Part shown: positions 1,491 through 36,101 of the stretch, piece by piece
Layout of the letters: the number at the start of each line of letters is the position of its first letter
Numbering within the stretch: position 1 is the first letter of the stretch
Assembly: GCA_021817145.1 (NCBI GenBank)
Contig: JAKAVV010000021.1
Coordinates: 1 to 41,725, forward strand
Length of the DNA stretch: 41,725 bases
Origin: a bacterium
Lineage (GTDB): Bacteria > Vulcanimicrobiota > JABDET01
Direction of reading: 5' to 3'
Made by a program: the position numbers and the translations under genes
Notes under the pieces: model-generated
Seen by the model: the letters and a program-made list of their open reading frames with translations, nothing else
Databases searched by the model: none
What the model was told of the DNA's origin: nothing

Positions 1491-2363
1491 ATGATCACGA
1501 TGTATCGTTGGCATAAAATTCAGATGCTTCAAAAAGGGGGGATGAAATTAAAAAAAATTGCCAGAACCTTGGGACTTTCCATTAATACGGTTAGAAAATA
1601 TGTGAGAGGTCAAAGTCCTCCCGAATTTCAGCGGTCAAAATGTCTCTCGCAGCTGAATCCCTATGTTTCTCAAATTCAAGAAATGATTGAACAAAAATAC
1701 ATTGGAACACGCATTTATCGAGAGCTTCTATCGTTAGGATACAGCGGTGGAATTGCCCAAATTCGTCGATATATTCGAAAATGGAAACAAGAACACAAGA
1801 AAGAGGCGCGGGTGACCACCCGCGTGGAAACAGACCCGGGTCAGCAGGCTCAATATGACTGGAAAGAATGGATGCTCCCTGTCCAAGAGCAGTCCGTCAA
1901 AATTTATCTCCATCAAGTGATCCTCAGTTACAGCCGATACAAATATTACACCTTCTCCTTAACCCTTACTCGATTCGATATTATGCGAGCCATTCAAGCG
2001 GCTTTTCTGGCTTTTGGAGGAACCCCTTTAGAACTCTGGATTGACAATCCGAAGCAGATGATTCTCACGCATCGGAAAAATGGAGTCATCGGATACCAGG
2101 AAGACTTTCTAAAATTCTGCGGGCTGTATGGGATTGAACCCACGGCTTGCCAACCTTACCGAGCCCAAACCAAAGGAAAAGTGGAACGAGAAACTCGCCA
2201 AATCACTTCTGATGGGTATCTCCATTATGGAGGAAATCGTTATCCTGTTTCGATGGAGCTGGCCCTCCAGGAGGTCTGGGTCGAATCTGTTTTTGGACGC
2301 CCTTCCCATCCTGAGCATGAAATCCTGAATAAGGCATATCGAAAAAAAAATTCATTTTTTTAG
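1491..2363 (+). pseudogene. istA: istA transposase of IS21 family, internal deletion
   Basis: The N-terminus is a helix-turn-helix (KKIARTLGLSINTVRKYVRG). The catalytic DDE core is recognisable: QYDWKEW (first Asp), WIDNPKQM (second Asp) and KGKVER (Glu). Directly after KGKVERETRQ the protein jumps to ITSDGYLHYGGNRYPV, which belongs to the C-terminal beta domain. The roughly 100 residues normally between these two points are missing. The far C-terminus is also cut and runs into sequence read in another frame from istB. A run of nine A at 2342-2350 marks the istA-istB junction. The product is unlikely to be an active transposase, although all three acidic residues survive. Confidence 0.85.
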
Positions 2364-2878
2364 GTCCCCCAGGGGTGGGAAAAACGCATTTAGCCGCGGC
2401 TTTTGGGGTAAAAGCCTGCCAGGCAAAATATCGGGTTTTGTTCACCACCGTGGAAGCCTTGCTCGAAGAGTTGATGATTTCGGTTCGAGAGGGGAGCATC
2501 CGATCTAAACTTTTATCGTATTCAAGACTGCATTTATTGATTCTGGATGAATTGGGATATACCCCCATTAATCGAGAACAGGCGCATCTTTTGTTTCGGC
2601 TGGTCTGTTCTCGATATGAAAAAGGTTCTCTGATTATTACCAGCAATTACAATTTTGATGACTGGGGAAAAGTCTTTGAGGATTTAGTGTCAGCCAGCGC
2701 CATTATTGATCGACTGGTTCATCATGCCAATCTTTTCATCATTAATGGGTCCAGTTATCGGCTGAAAGACAAATTAAAAAAAGGAGGGGAATGTTCTGCC
2801 AGTGAGGGCGCAGAGGAGAAAGAAGAAACCAATAACTTTCCTGGAAAGCGGAGAAAGGAGGTTTTAAGAGTAGGATGA
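2333..2878 (+). pseudogene. istB: istB helper ATPase of IS21 family, 5' truncated
   Basis: The frame resumes at about 2333 and gives FIFLGPPGVGKTHLAAAFG (Walker A), then LLILDELGYTP (Walker B) and SLIITSNYNF (sensor region), and ends with SSYRLKDKLKKGG plus a short lysine-rich tail. IstB normally has about 90 residues in front of Walker A; these are missing and no start codon with a ribosome site remains. The first available start, GTG at 2375, lies inside the P-loop. It is fused out of frame to the end of the istA remnant, so one deletion removed the istA tail and the istB head. Confidence 0.85.
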
Positions 2879-10613: not shown

Positions 10614-11177
10614 ATGATAGAACCAGAGAAGATTCAAAATCCGATCGAAAAAACGACTGAAAGCAAAGTGGTTTTTCAGGGGAAATTTTTCAATGTCCGA
10701 AAACATCAAGTGATTCTTCCTGATGGGAAAAAAGCAGATAGAGAAATTGCGGAACATCCTGGAGCAGCAGGCTGCGTGGTTTTAAATGACAAAAACGAAC
10801 TTCTTCTTGTTAAACAGTACAGAAAAGCAGCAGAACAAGTTCTCACGGAAATTCCAGCAGGGAAAATTGATAAAAACGAATCACCTGAATCCTGTGTGGC
10901 GCGTGAAGTGGAAGAAGAGACAGGGGTCATGATCACAGCCCCAGAAAAGCTCATCGAATTCTATCCAAGTCCTGGTTTTACAACAGAAAAAATGTTTATT
11001 TATCGAGCATACGTCAAATCTCAAGGATCAACTCGCCAGATGGAGGATGAATGCATCTGGTCAGGTTTTGTCCCTTTTCATCATGCTCTTAACATGATAA
11101 AAACCGGAGAGATTCAAGACGCTAAAACGATCATCGGTATTTTATTAACAGAGGCAAAACTAAAAAATCCTGGCTGA
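10614..11177 (+). CDS. nudF: ADP-ribose pyrophosphatase (Nudix family, NudF type)
   Basis: The 187-residue protein carries a complete Nudix box: G-KIDKN-E followed after seven residues by REVEEETGV, matching GX5EX7REUXEEXGU. The N-terminal strand region (KVVFQGKFFNVRKHQVILPDGKK) and QYRKAAEQVLTEIPAGKID are typical of the ADP-ribose pyrophosphatase subgroup. It would split ADP-ribose to AMP and ribose-5-phosphate, which connects with phosphopentomutase further downstream. AGAAGAGAAG precedes the ATG. The next gene, endoQ, starts 29 bases after the stop, so the two are probably co-transcribed. Confidence 0.9.
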   Translation: MIEPEKIQNPIEKTTESKVVFQGKFFNVRKHQVILPDGKKADREIAEHPGAAGCVVLNDKNELLLVKQYRKAAEQVLTEIPAGKIDKNESPESCVAREVEEETGVMITAPEKLIEFYPSPGFTTEKMFIYRAYVKSQGSTRQMEDECIWSGFVPFHHALNMIKTGEIQDAKTIIGILLTEAKLKNPG

Positions 11178-24884: not shown

Positions 24885-25580
24885 TTATGAGAAAACTCTC
24901 ATACGATACCCAACCCCTGACTCTGTTAAAATATATTGGGGAAGGGAAGGATTTTCTTCAATTTTCTGGCGGAGCTGCCCAATATAAACTCTGAGGTACT
25001 GGGTGTCATCTCTGTACTCTTCTCCCCACACTTCACGGAGCAGCTGACTGTGGGTAAGAACCCTTCCTGCTTTCACAGCCAGAACTCGAAGCAGATCATA
25101 TTCTTTAGGGGTTAATTTAATCTCTTGACCACCAACAGCAACCTGCCTTTTAGTAAAATCAATGGTTAAAGCCCCGCAGTGAAAAACAGGTTCAAGCCCT
25201 TCAGATTGAATCTTCTGTCTTAATGCAGCGCGAATTCGAGCCAAAAGTTCCCCCATGCTGAAAGGTTTATCCACATAATCATTTGCTCCTAAATCCAGAG
25301 CTGAAATTTTATCTTTTTCATGGGAGCGCACAGACAGCACAATCACAGGAAGGTGAGACCATTCTCTTAATTGACGTATAACAGCTAATCCATCTTCATC
25401 TGGCAGCCCTAAATCTAAAAGCATTAAATCAGGGGATTCTGAAGCTGCTGCAGCAAGAGCTTCTTTTCCTGAAATGGCTTCTGAAACTTGATATTGATGA
25501 GCGGTTAAGCTGACTCTGAGAAGGCGTCGAATTTGAGGCTCGTCATCCACAACTAGAATTTTCGCCAGTTTATCAAGCAT
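24885..25580 (-). CDS. kdpE: Response regulator KdpE (OmpR family)
   Basis: The protein starts at the ATG at 25580 (MLDKLAKILVVDDEP) and has 231 residues. A longer in-frame reading into the kinase gene exists but would give an unnatural N-terminus. The receiver domain has the acidic pair VDDEP, the phosphoacceptor D56 in LLDLGLPDEDG, and VDKPFSMGELLARIRAALR. The C-terminal winged helix ends with VYIGQLRQKIEENPSLPQYILTE and GVGYRM, typical of OmpR/PhoB regulators. The start overlaps the end of the kinase gene by eight bases, so the two are coupled. The candidate target sites lie before kdpA. Confidence 0.93.
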   Translation of the reverse strand: MLDKLAKILVVDDEPQIRRLLRVSLTAHQYQVSEAISGKEALAAAASESPDLMLLDLGLPDEDGLAVIRQLREWSHLPVIVLSVRSHEKDKISALDLGANDYVDKPFSMGELLARIRAALRQKIQSEGLEPVFHCGALTIDFTKRQVAVGGQEIKLTPKEYDLLRVLAVKAGRVLTHSQLLREVWGEEYRDDTQYLRVYIGQLRQKIEENPSLPQYILTESGVGYRMRVFS

Positions 25581-26886
25581 ATTGTTTTTCCTTTTCAAGA
25601 GAGTAAGAGATTTCAGTTCCAGCAGGCAATTCAATAACCATGGAAACCCCTTTCCCAGAAGAAAGGCTTTTTGCGGAAATTTTCCCCCCATGAGCTTCGA
25701 CAATCCCTTTGCAAATCGAAAGTCCAAGTCCTGTTCCTGCATTAGGGCGGGCTGTTTCTTTTATCCGGTAAAATTTCTGGAAAACGGATCTCTGCTCCAA
25801 GAGAGGAATTCCAACTCCTTCATCTGTGATCTCGACAAAAATCCTCTCTTCTTTTTTGTATGCCTTAATCCAAATTGTTGTTCCTGGTTCAGAGTATTTT
25901 ACCGCATTATCTAAAAGATTTAGTAAAACATGCTCAAATAAAACAAAGTCTAAAAAAAGCATGGGAAGATTTGGTTCTAAAGCCACTACAAGATGGCGAT
26001 CAGAAAGGAGATTAGATAATCGGGAAAGAGAAGAACCCAGCAGATCCTGAAATTCCACCCATTCCTGATTCAATTTTAAACCTGATTGAAGTTTCATCAT
26101 GTCTAATAAGTTGCTGACAAAACGATTCAAACGTTCTGCCTCTTCCTGAATTGTGAAAAGAAGCTCTTTTTGGGAAGCAAGATCATAACGCGCCTCTTCA
26201 TCTAGAAGAGCAGCGCTTGCTCCAAGAATAGAAGAGATCGGAGTCCGAAAATCGTGAGAAATACAAGATAAAAGAGTGGTTTCCAATTTTCTTGCTTCGT
26301 TTAAAAGCCGAGCCTGTTCAATGACTTTTAAGTGACTGGCCCTTTCGATCACGATCCCCAACTGGCTGACAGTAGCATCTAAAAACCCATCCTGCTGCGA
26401 TGAAATAATCCCATCATTTGCCTGCAGATTTAAGCTTAAAATTCCAACAGGTTCCCCTTCCACTTCTAAAGGGAAAAAGAACCACTCTGATCCTGAGAAA
26501 AAATTCGTATGGCATCCAGCAGGTTTGTTGTTTTGGAATGCCCACACCGCTTTCGCATAATCCGATTCACTCATTTTGATTTGGGAAGGATACTCTGCCT
26601 TTTGAAACAACAAACTGTTTTCAGAGACAAAAAGGATCAAATTGCAGTGAAACATCTCTCCTATCCTTTTTGCGATTACTTGAAAAGCATTTTCCAGTTT
26701 TACAGAAACTGCGATTTCTCGGATAAGGGAATAAAGAAAAGCCATTCGGGCTTCTCGTTCTTGAGAGGCAGAAACTTGGCTTCGGGCTTGAGTGATAAGA
26801 TAGACGGCTGCAGCGAAAAGCGCAGCTGAGAAGAAAATAAAAACCGGGCTAATCATTCCTTTTTTGATTTTCTTGATTTGAACCAT
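25573..26886 (-). CDS. Histidine kinase half of the Kdp sensor (KdpD-like C-terminal part)
   Basis: The 437-residue protein has a membrane helix at residues 11-31, a GAF-like domain at about 50-185, and then the kinase: H211 in LLSCISHDFRTPIS, N-box LLNLLDNAVKYSEPG, G1 DEGVGIP, F FQKFYR, and G2 GTGLGLSICKGIVEAHGG. The kinase part resembles the C-terminal end of KdpD, but the KdpD sensory domains are absent and found instead in a separate gene at 30979-32919. It is translationally coupled to kdpE. A promoter region shared divergently with the porin gene lies just upstream. Confidence 0.88.
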   Translation of the reverse strand: MVQIKKIKKGMISPVFIFFSAALFAAAVYLITQARSQVSASQEREARMAFLYSLIREIAVSVKLENAFQVIAKRIGEMFHCNLILFVSENSLLFQKAEYPSQIKMSESDYAKAVWAFQNNKPAGCHTNFFSGSEWFFFPLEVEGEPVGILSLNLQANDGIISSQQDGFLDATVSQLGIVIERASHLKVIEQARLLNEARKLETTLLSCISHDFRTPISSILGASAALLDEEARYDLASQKELLFTIQEEAERLNRFVSNLLDMMKLQSGLKLNQEWVEFQDLLGSSLSRLSNLLSDRHLVVALEPNLPMLFLDFVLFEHVLLNLLDNAVKYSEPGTTIWIKAYKKEERIFVEITDEGVGIPLLEQRSVFQKFYRIKETARPNAGTGLGLSICKGIVEAHGGKISAKSLSSGKGVSMVIELPAGTEISYSLEKEKQYA

Positions 26887-30978: not shown

Positions 30979-32919
30979 ATGGATGACCAGCGTCCAGATC
31001 CAGAAGCGCTTTTAAAACGGATCAAAGCAGAAGAAAGAATTACCTCGCAAACAAAAGGAGAACTTAAAATTTTCCTGGGGGCAAATGCCGGTGTTGGAAA
31101 AACTTACCGGATGTTAGCTCAAGCCAAAGTGCAAAAAGAAACAGGAATAGACGTTGTCATCGGCTATGTTGAAACCCATCAAAGACAGGAAACAGAAGCC
31201 CTTACACAAGGGCTGGAATTGATCCCCAGAAAAAAGATTGAATATGGAGATCTGCTCTTAGAAGAAATGGATCTGGATGCTGTTCTTGCAAGACACCCAA
31301 AACTGGTGCTTGTGGATGAACTGGCTCATACCAATGCCCCGGGATCAAGACATTATAAACGATATCAAGATGTGGAAGAGCTGTTAAGCGCGGGAATTGA
31401 CGTTTTCACAACATTGAACATTCAACATGTCGAAAGTTTAAATGATCAGGTGTATCAAATCACAGGAATTCGAGTAAAAGAAACGGTCCCTGATCGAATC
31501 CTGGAGATGGCTGATGAATTAAACGGAATCGAGTTAGTGGATCTCTCTCCACAAGAGCTTCTGCAGAGATTAAAAGAGGGGAAAGTTTATGTTCCTCAGA
31601 AAGCAAAACAAGCTTCTGAACAATTTTTTAAAGAAGGAAATCTCCTGGCCCTTAGAGAGATGGCGCTTCGATATACTACGCAGAGAGTAGATAAGAATGT
31701 GCAGTGGTATATGGAGCAGCATGCTATTGAAGGTCCTCTCACAGCTTCTTCTCGTATTCTGGTCTGTGTTGGCACAACAGAACTCTCTGAAAAAGTAATC
31801 AGACTGGCTAAGCAGCTGGCTTCAACCATGGATGCGGAATGGTATGCTGTTCATGTTCAGTCCCTTCTTCAGGCAGCCCTTTCTTCCAAAGCTCAAGATC
31901 GGCTGACTAAAAACCTGAAACTGGCAGAAGAATTGGGAGGAAAAGTTGTGACTCTAACAGGACAAAGCCTTGCTCAGGAAATCCTGAAATTTGCCAGACG
32001 CCAAAACATTTCCTTCATTTTAATCGGCTGGAGAGCGAGGTGGAACTGGAGGAGATTATTTCAAGGAGCTCTTGTGAATACACTGGTTAGAGAAAGCGGA
32101 CCAATTCATGTGCTGGTTATAACAGATTCTAATGAGAAAATAAAAACGGATGAAAAAGCAGAAGAAAAGAGCAGATTAGCCCCTGATTGGAAATCTCTGC
32201 TGAAAGGGGGAACATTATCTTTTGCCACTGCTGGAATTTGCTGGGCAGCAAAGAACTGGTTAAAGCTCCCTGATGTTCTAATGCTCTTTTTTCTGCCTGT
32301 TATCGCCAGTGTTGGTTTTTGGGGATGGCAGGCTGGGTTCGGAGCCATGATTTTAGCGATTCTTGCCTTTGGATTTCTCTTTCATCCTCCACCCTTCAGT
32401 TTAATCTTATTTTTACTGGCAGGTCTTTCATGTCAGTATTTAACAGAACAATTAAGATGGAAGGGAGAAAGCGCAAAACAGTCCGAACGGTTTGTTTTAA
32501 TTCTCTATGAATTAAGCAGAAAACTTCTGGCAATTGACACTGTATCCGATCTTTTTAAAATCGCGGGAGATCTGTTAAAACAGGCTTTTGACTGCGAGGT
32601 CCAATTCCTGTTTCCCGACAGCATCGGGAGATTACAAGTCAATTTTCAAACTTCTGGAGTTGGAGCATTAAAGGAGAGCAGCTCAGGGGTTGCGGATTGG
32701 ACTTTCCACTACGGGAAAATGGCGGGGAAAGGAACAGACACCTTATCCTCCTCCAGTTTGATCTACTTTCCCTTAAAAACAAAAGTCGCCACAGTTGGAG
32801 TTCTTGGAGTTCAAATTCCTAAAACACAAACCACTTTAGGCTCAGATCAAATGCGCCTTCTGGAATCATTCGCCAATATTGTGGCAGTCTCTGCTGCTCG
32901 CATTCTGCGCGTGAAATAA
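30979..32919 (+). CDS. kdpD: Kinase-less KdpD sensor (N-terminal half)
   Basis: The 646-residue protein begins MDDQRPDPEALLKRIKAEE and has the KdpD Walker-A-like GANAGVGKTYRM (residues 34-45) and the VDELAHTNAPGSRH motif. A universal-stress-like domain spans about 255-385. Hydrophobic helices of the DUF4118 type follow (about 410-495), then a GAF-like domain to the end (LLESFANIVAVSAARIL). No histidine-kinase domain is present; full-length KdpD is about 890 residues. Short KdpD forms lacking the kinase are known from cyanobacteria and Deinococcus. The missing kinase is likely the protein at 25573-26886. The 3' end overlaps the end of tgt by 54 bases on opposite strands. Confidence 0.9.
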   Translation: MDDQRPDPEALLKRIKAEERITSQTKGELKIFLGANAGVGKTYRMLAQAKVQKETGIDVVIGYVETHQRQETEALTQGLELIPRKKIEYGDLLLEEMDLDAVLARHPKLVLVDELAHTNAPGSRHYKRYQDVEELLSAGIDVFTTLNIQHVESLNDQVYQITGIRVKETVPDRILEMADELNGIELVDLSPQELLQRLKEGKVYVPQKAKQASEQFFKEGNLLALREMALRYTTQRVDKNVQWYMEQHAIEGPLTASSRILVCVGTTELSEKVIRLAKQLASTMDAEWYAVHVQSLLQAALSSKAQDRLTKNLKLAEELGGKVVTLTGQSLAQEILKFARRQNISFILIGWRARWNWRRLFQGALVNTLVRESGPIHVLVITDSNEKIKTDEKAEEKSRLAPDWKSLLKGGTLSFATAGICWAAKNWLKLPDVLMLFFLPVIASVGFWGWQAGFGAMILAILAFGFLFHPPPFSLILFLLAGLSCQYLTEQLRWKGESAKQSERFVLILYELSRKLLAIDTVSDLFKIAGDLLKQAFDCEVQFLFPDSIGRLQVNFQTSGVGALKESSSGVADWTFHYGKMAGKGTDTLSSSSLIYFPLKTKVATVGVLGVQIPKTQTTLGSDQMRLLESFANIVAVSAARILRVK

Positions 32920-34677: not shown

Positions 34678-34704
34678 AAACATAAAGACAAAAGAATTAA
34701 AACG

Positions 34705-34729
34705 AAAAGGGATTCCACTCCCTTTTTTT
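34705..34729 (+). terminator. Intrinsic terminator of the small heat-shock gene
   Basis: AAAAGGGA-TTCCAC-TCCCTTTT forms a 4-GC stem extended by A:T pairs, followed by a T run. It begins 28 bases after the stop codon. Confidence 0.8.
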
Positions 34730-34784: not shown

Positions 34785-36101
34785 TTATTCTAAATACCCT
34801 TTGACTTTTGAGAGAATCGGCTGATTGGCTGGAGGAAACCCGATTTGATCAAAATCTTGATGATTCACCCACTGAACTTCCCCCCATTTAATCGCTCTAA
34901 TCGCTCCTTGCAAAACACGACATTTAAAAAAATGAATTTTAATTTTCCGATCCGGATAATTGCACATCACTGTATCAATCAGATGCTCAACAATAACTTC
35001 AAGATTAACCTCTTCTCGAATTTCACGAATCACAGCCATTTGAGGAGACTCTCCAGGTTCCAATTTTCCGCCAGGAAATTCCCACATTCCTTCCAGATGT
35101 TTCCCTTTAATTCTTCTGGCAATCAGAACTTTTCCATCCTGAATAATAACCCCTGCGGCCACATCAACAACCCCATCTCGGGACAAAGAAAGATCTCCTT
35201 TTTTCTCAACCTTTTTTCCTAAAAATTGAAGCAGTTTTTTCTGATACAAATCAGTCTGCTGGTCATAAGCCTCTGCATGGCCAACTTGAGGGACGATCCA
35301 CAGCTCTTTTTTTACGGATGGACACTTTTTAAACAAAGCCTTTGCGTGAGAAACTGAAATGGTCTGATCCCCCTCTCCATGAATAAAAAAAATGGGAAGA
35401 TCTCTCAGCTTTTTAACAGCATCCAATGGTTTTTCAGGATCTTCAGGATAGCCTCCAATTTTCCTTAAAAAAAACCAGCAAATACCCCAGAAGTACTTTT
35501 TAGGGAGTCCGTGAAAAAAAAGAGAAAAATTTCTTTTTAATAAAGCCATCCCATCAGCATAAGAGCTGTCGCACACAAGACTCGATATTTGATCTGTTTC
35601 CGCGGATGCCAAAAGAGCGGCAGCTGCCCCCATACTGAAACCAATAACAATCACTTTCCCATCAAAGGTCAAATGATTTGCCTCAGCATATTGAATCGCC
35701 CCCAGGAGATCCTCTTTTTCTCGATATCCAAGGTTAGAAAAGAATCCATCTGATTCTCCATGAGCTCTAAAATCAAAAACCAGACAGTCATATTCATTGC
35801 GAAACATAAAAGCAGCCAGAGGAAGGGTTTCCGCTTTGCTGGACATCAATCCATGACAAATAATCACCAACCCTTCTGATGCTTGATTATGCCGCATCAA
35901 CCATCCTGACAATTTCGTTCTGCCATCCCGACTGTAAAATTGAACTTTAGCAAAGGGAAGATTATAAGCTTTAGGAGAATAATCAGAACGAGAATGGAAG
36001 GGATGAATAAAGAGAAAAGTCGCGGCAAGAGCAGAAAAACCATAAAGCAAAAATAAAATAGTCAATAACTCCAGAATAAAAACTAAACTTTTTAGAATCA
36101 T
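34785..36101 (-). CDS. Membrane-anchored alpha/beta hydrolase fused to a MutT-type Nudix domain
   Basis: The 438-residue protein has an N-terminal membrane helix (residues 5-32). The hydrolase domain follows, with GFSMG (nucleophile S156), HGLMSSKAE (oxyanion region), D245 in HGEGDQT, and H275 in VGHAEAY, a complete triad. After a charged linker (KKVEKKGDLSLSRDG) comes a Nudix domain from about 312: VAAGVIIQDGKVLIARRIKG, MWEFPGGKLEPGES, REIREEVNL (box complete, Asn in place of the last Gly) and FPPANQPIL. The Nudix part resembles MutT, which removes oxidised dGTP. Such a fusion is unusual. The Nudix substrate is cytoplasmic, so the hydrolase would also be expected on the inner face of the membrane. 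Frame is open throughout. Confidence 0.85.
   Translation of the reverse strand: MILKSLVFILELLTILFLLYGFSALAATFLFIHPFHSRSDYSPKAYNLPFAKVQFYSRDGRTKLSGWLMRHNQASEGLVIICHGLMSSKAETLPLAAFMFRNEYDCLVFDFRAHGESDGFFSNLGYREKEDLLGAIQYAEANHLTFDGKVIVIGFSMGAAAALLASAETDQISSLVCDSSYADGMALLKRNFSLFFHGLPKKYFWGICWFFLRKIGGYPEDPEKPLDAVKKLRDLPIFFIHGEGDQTISVSHAKALFKKCPSVKKELWIVPQVGHAEAYDQQTDLYQKKLLQFLGKKVEKKGDLSLSRDGVVDVAAGVIIQDGKVLIARRIKGKHLEGMWEFPGGKLEPGESPQMAVIREIREEVNLEVIVEHLIDTVMCNYPDRKIKIHFFKCRVLQGAIRAIKWGEVQWVNHQDFDQIGFPPANQPILSKVKGYLE

Follow-up and report, generated by a model that had tools for sequence, protein, structure and literature searches.

A fusion of a membrane-anchored alpha/beta-hydrolase and a MutT-type Nudix domain confined to one genus of Vulcanimicrobiota

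The fused gene and its hydrolase half

The window, i.e. the whole stretch of 41,725 nucleotides that was analysed, carries on its minus strand a gene in which two enzyme domains are encoded in one reading frame (Table 1). A single uninterrupted frame of 438 amino acids begins with a hydrophobic segment, continues into an alpha/beta-hydrolase domain and, after a short linker, ends in a Nudix domain. This agrees with the original prediction of one open frame behind a membrane helix, in which no strand was given. A terminator-like hairpin that reads both ways separates the gene from the gene facing it.

Table 1. Features of the fused gene and its immediate surroundings in the window.
Feature	Position	Strand	Basis
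Whole fused gene, 438 aa (ATG at 36101, TAA ending at 34785)	34785..36101	-	Open reading frame; full-length homologue in G001, 69% identity
N-terminal membrane helix, residues 2-32	36006..36098	-	Kyte-Doolittle maximum 2.46; AlphaFold2 helix
Alpha/beta-hydrolase domain, residues 41-296	35214..35981	-	Pfam Hydrolase_4/Abhydrolase_1; PDB 5g59; homologue alignment
Ser156, nucleophile in GFSMG (GISMG in G001)	35634..35636	-	Invariant in 10 homologues
Asp245 of the triad (HGEGDQT)	35367..35369	-	Invariant in 10 homologues
His275 of the triad (GHAE)	35277..35279	-	Invariant in 10 homologues
Linker, residues 297-311	35169..35213	-	27% identity between the two species
MutT-type Nudix domain, residues 312-434	34800..35168	-	TIGR00586, 105.2 bits (cut-off 97.9); AlphaFold2 pLDDT
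Nudix box, residues 345-367, canonical except last Gly -> Asn366	35001..35069	-	Alignment; DR_0079 precedent (PMC5389931)
Asn426, equivalent of MutT Asn119	34824..34826	-	Alignment; role from PMC5314174
Candidate internal ribosome site GGAG (35195-35198) with TTG codon 306 (35184-35186)	35184..35198	-	Ranking of in-frame NTG codons
Bidirectional terminator-like hairpin separating the fusion gene from its facing Hsp20-like neighbour	34704..34727		Sequence

The first half of the protein matches the Pfam families Hydrolase_4 (1e-15, 58.2 bits; gathering cut-off 27) and Abhydrolase_1 (5.6e-14, 52.8 bits; gathering cut-off 25.8), and its best solved relative is an esterase (PDB 5g59, 1.2e-21). The complete serine hydrolase triad that had been predicted is borne out: Ser156, Asp245 and His275 are unchanged in all ten aligned sequences, of which nine belong to other genomes. 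Judged from the fold family and the triad, this half probably has carboxylesterase or lipase-like activity. AlphaFold2 modelled residues 2-32 as a single confident helix (block pLDDT 86, 90 and 71), and the pLDDT of the hydrolase half was mostly below 50 because just two sequences in the alignment covered that half. The relatives of the hydrolase half are stand-alone membrane-anchored hydrolases, which are common in several phyla. They share with the fusion protein an N-terminal helix followed by a predicted hydrolase fold with the same Ser-Asp-His triad, but those found stop at the hydrolase, whereas the fusion protein runs on into the Nudix domain.

Other genes of the window merit a brief description. 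A second Nudix gene, at 10614-11177 (+), is near the ADP-ribose pyrophosphatase type, with a TIGR00052 score just below the cut-off. KdpD appears to be split near the Kdp operon into two genes on opposite strands, at 30979-32919 (+) and 25573-26886 (-); one gene matches positions 2-645 of 895 (the sensor part) and another positions 494-884 (the kinase part). Two adjoining frames at 1491-2878 (+) resemble, by eye from their translations, a transposase of the IS21 type with its ATP-binding helper.

Conservation and spread of the fusion

Another species of the genus (G001; contig JAJYZB010000001.1, 458 kb, independently assembled) carries the complete fusion with the same start and 69% identity. 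The gene order around it is the same as in the window: the fusion is flanked on one side by a bifunctional homocysteine methyltransferase/MTHFR gene, on the other by two genes that, judged from their sequences, are an Hsp20-like gene and tgt. The original prediction had allowed for an artefact should the fusion be absent from other genomes and the join at 35170-35230 be faulty. The first of these conditions does not hold, which speaks for a real protein. That an assembly error or a frameshift fused two adjoining genes is practically out of the question, since the independent assembly of G001 contains the same in-frame join, the join region of the window has neither a stop nor a change of frame, and the other two frames of the minus strand are full of stops (20 and 33); nothing was found in favour of an artefact.

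Sequence conservation between the two species is uneven along the protein. Identity is 72% in the hydrolase and 74% in the Nudix domain, and 27% in the 15-residue linker. For the hydrolase dN/dS is ∼0.14; for the Nudix domain it is ∼0.06. Both values are approximate, with synonymous sites near saturation. By these estimates, both halves are kept as protein by purifying selection. In both fusion proteins the charge just after the helix is more positive than that of the few preceding residues. Under the positive-inside rule, this pattern would place the C-terminus in the cytoplasm, the one compartment where an 8-oxo-dGTPase would be meaningful. The charges of several stand-alone hydrolase relatives point the other way, a topological uncertainty that counts against the MutT reading.

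Whole-length matches in a multi-phylum sample of 388 genomes came only from the window's genome and G001. The closest hydrolases in this sample are stand-alone and match up to about residue 297, whereas the matches to the Nudix half set in at about residue 311, on the other side of the linker; the boundary therefore falls between whole genes. Strong matches to both halves close together occur in no other genome of the sample. The search was extended to ∼1,200 distinct genomes from many phyla, and no other fusion was found in the bacterium's own phylum (149 genomes) or in two other large phyla, represented by 400 and 398 genomes. Among 72,556 plasmids none had a match covering 80% of the fusion protein, and only separate halves were seen; viral contigs yielded no fusion either. 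A scan of genome_contigs revealed no more distant fusion, using two narrow peptide patterns that distant fusions could escape. G002, the closest relative from beyond the genus, lacks the fusion as far as its genome sequence goes, which is 67% complete. Among the genomes searched, the fusion is restricted to one genus. Alpha/beta-hydrolases and MutT proteins are otherwise separate, as had been assumed at the outset, with every other genome examined matching one half only. No title or abstract found in the literature describes an alpha/beta-hydrolase-Nudix fusion, and abhydrolase and fused domains both go unmentioned in a Nudix clan review.

Several long open frames that bear a Nudix domain were considered as further fusions and rejected. 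Three (G265, G232 and G354, the latter two high in G+C) have no second Pfam domain, two others are MutY, and one is a MutT-HpnC-HpnD frame. Two hydrolases (G259 and G395) have N-terminal extensions but no Nudix domain.

MutT domains are joined to unrelated enzymes elsewhere, namely to ThiE in Dyella (L034) and to HpnC-HpnD (L062, G284). The latter is a putative open frame of 737 residues (L062:230-2440, minus strand) in which a MutT-type Nudix domain is followed by the squalene-pathway enzymes HpnC and HpnD. The Dyella protein belongs to PRK08999 (NF006530), which likewise combines a MutT-type Nudix domain and an unrelated enzyme in one chain but has its Nudix domain at the N-terminus and thiamine phosphate synthase (ThiE) as its partner; the PRK08999 model scores 116.8 bits on the fusion protein, over the Nudix part only and below the cut-off of 245. 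MutY proteins with NUDIX_4 resemble the fusion protein in carrying this domain at the C-terminus. Their partner, however, is a DNA glycosylase, the window's genome has MutY separately, and the canonical box is absent from the Nudix domain of MutY (PMC5389931).

Identity of the Nudix half

Residues 314-431 match NUDIX_4 (1.7e-22) and NUDIX (4.7e-19) well above the curated cut-offs, and AlphaFold2 folded this half confidently, with pLDDT mostly 76-93. The NCBIfam model for MutT, TIGR00586, scores 102.3 bits on the protein and 105.2 bits in the genome search, against a curated cut-off of 97.9. In both the window's genome and G001, the Nudix half of the fusion is the only domain above that cut-off. 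The whole domain aligns with E. coli MutT (PDB 1mut, 3a6t) and retains the Nudix glutamates. Arg23, His28, Phe35, Arg78 and Asn119 of E. coli MutT correspond in this alignment to Arg330, His335, Phe342, Arg385 and Asn426. MutT Glu98 is a (fourth) metal ligand that other members of the family may do without; its column holds Lys405 here and Arg in G001, and it varies in other homologues too, the local alignment being uncertain. To distinguish 8-oxoguanine from other bases, E. coli MutT uses Phe35 and Asn119 (PMC5314174). Asn426, in FPPAN, agrees with MutT; the three other aligned homologues have Asp at this position.

The Nudix box was compared with the consensus GX5EX7REUXEEXGU. It had been described as complete, which holds for every catalytic position but not for the last Gly, replaced by Asn366 in both species. 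The same Gly to Asn change is present in DR_0079 of Deinococcus, a pyrimidine nucleoside triphosphate diphosphatase (PMC5389931); no further precedent for a box with this Asn was found. The half differs from E. coli MutT in its position behind a membrane hydrolase, in the last Gly of the box and in the Lys that aligns with Glu98, and Asn366 and Lys405 may give it an activity and specificity different from those of MutT.

On balance, the Nudix half is likely to be the MutT (8-oxo-dGTP diphosphatase) of this genome. MutY is encoded by a separate gene in the window's genome (G000, L081) and in G001 (L080). MutM/Fpg (TIGR00577) was not found in G000, G001 or G002, while 8 of 14 control genomes were positive. 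The classical MutT-MutM-MutY trio is thus incomplete here, which counts against the MutT reading. The domain could instead be a membrane-tethered diphosphatase for other nucleotides, e.g. CTP or other pyrimidine nucleotides, and not an 8-oxo-dGTPase; the Asn shared with DR_0079 and Lys405 would fit such an enzyme, and the NudG-type, CTP-type model PRK10546 also matches, at 88.1 bits. We regard this as unlikely, though worth keeping in mind, since PRK10546 stays far under its own cut-off of 156 whereas TIGR00586 exceeds its cut-off, and Asn426 agrees with MutT.

Relationship between the two halves

The reading to which we give moderate preference is a genus-confined fusion of two ordinary enzymes, a membrane serine hydrolase and the genome's MutT, whose halves are most likely independent. 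The N-terminal half would act as a membrane-anchored alpha/beta serine hydrolase through Ser156-Asp245-His275. In the C-terminal half, the glutamates of the Nudix box with bound metal would hydrolyse oxidised dGTP, yielding the monophosphate and pyrophosphate; removal of oxidised dGTP in this manner would leave a clean nucleotide pool. The halves would work separately on a flexible linker, the membrane helix merely carrying the MutT along. Both enzyme activities, the cytoplasmic location and the independence of the halves are points that we infer.

The gene could also yield two products, the full membrane protein and, if translation can begin within the linker as well, a separate soluble MutT. 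A GGAG lies 8 bases before TTG codon 306, and this site ranks second strongest of the 30 in-frame NTG sites in the window's genome; in G001 the candidates are weaker ones, GTG at codons 312 and 314, and the site of the true ATG is weak in either species. Nevertheless, the internal sites of the two species agree neither in position nor in codon or strength, sites of comparable or greater strength are also seen at places unlikely to serve as starts (codon 412 in both species), and in a purine-rich linker chance matches are cheap. A second product is accordingly a doubtful proposition.

A third possibility, which we consider improbable, is that the activities are coupled, the hydrolase and the Nudix domain acting on successive parts of one substrate or in one membrane-bound damage response. 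In favour, both species have retained the fusion in frame with the two catalytic sets intact, although 31% of the residues differ between them. Against this stand the absence of the fusion from every other genome of the ∼1,200, the lack in the 388-genome sample of another case with both halves strongly matched nearby, the unconserved linker, and the fact that MutT domains also fuse with enzymes as unrelated as ThiE and HpnC-HpnD. The original prediction, which had coupled hydrolysis of an ester or lipid to nucleotide repair at the membrane, fares poorly on the same grounds: the fusion is known from one genus only, and its linker is 27% identical versus 72-74% in the domains. Nor did the proposed shared substrate or repair role find support, as neither half shows a residue pattern pointing to a common substrate and no other sampled genome has strong matches to both halves close together.

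A more specific form of coupling is a membrane-tethered nucleotide sanitiser, in which the esterase-like half would deacylate or sense products of membrane oxidation and so steer or control the MutT half. We consider this very improbable. If true, it would tie lipid to nucleotide oxidative damage within one protein.

We therefore return to the fusion of two independent enzymes as the preferred reading. What is new is the domain combination; both enzyme families are ordinary, and no new chemistry is implied. If the Nudix half is a working MutT, cleaning of the nucleotide pool would be done from the inner membrane in these bacteria, which would be unusual for a normally soluble enzyme. The fusion provides a clean case of lineage-specific domain joining in which the parts are still recognisable.
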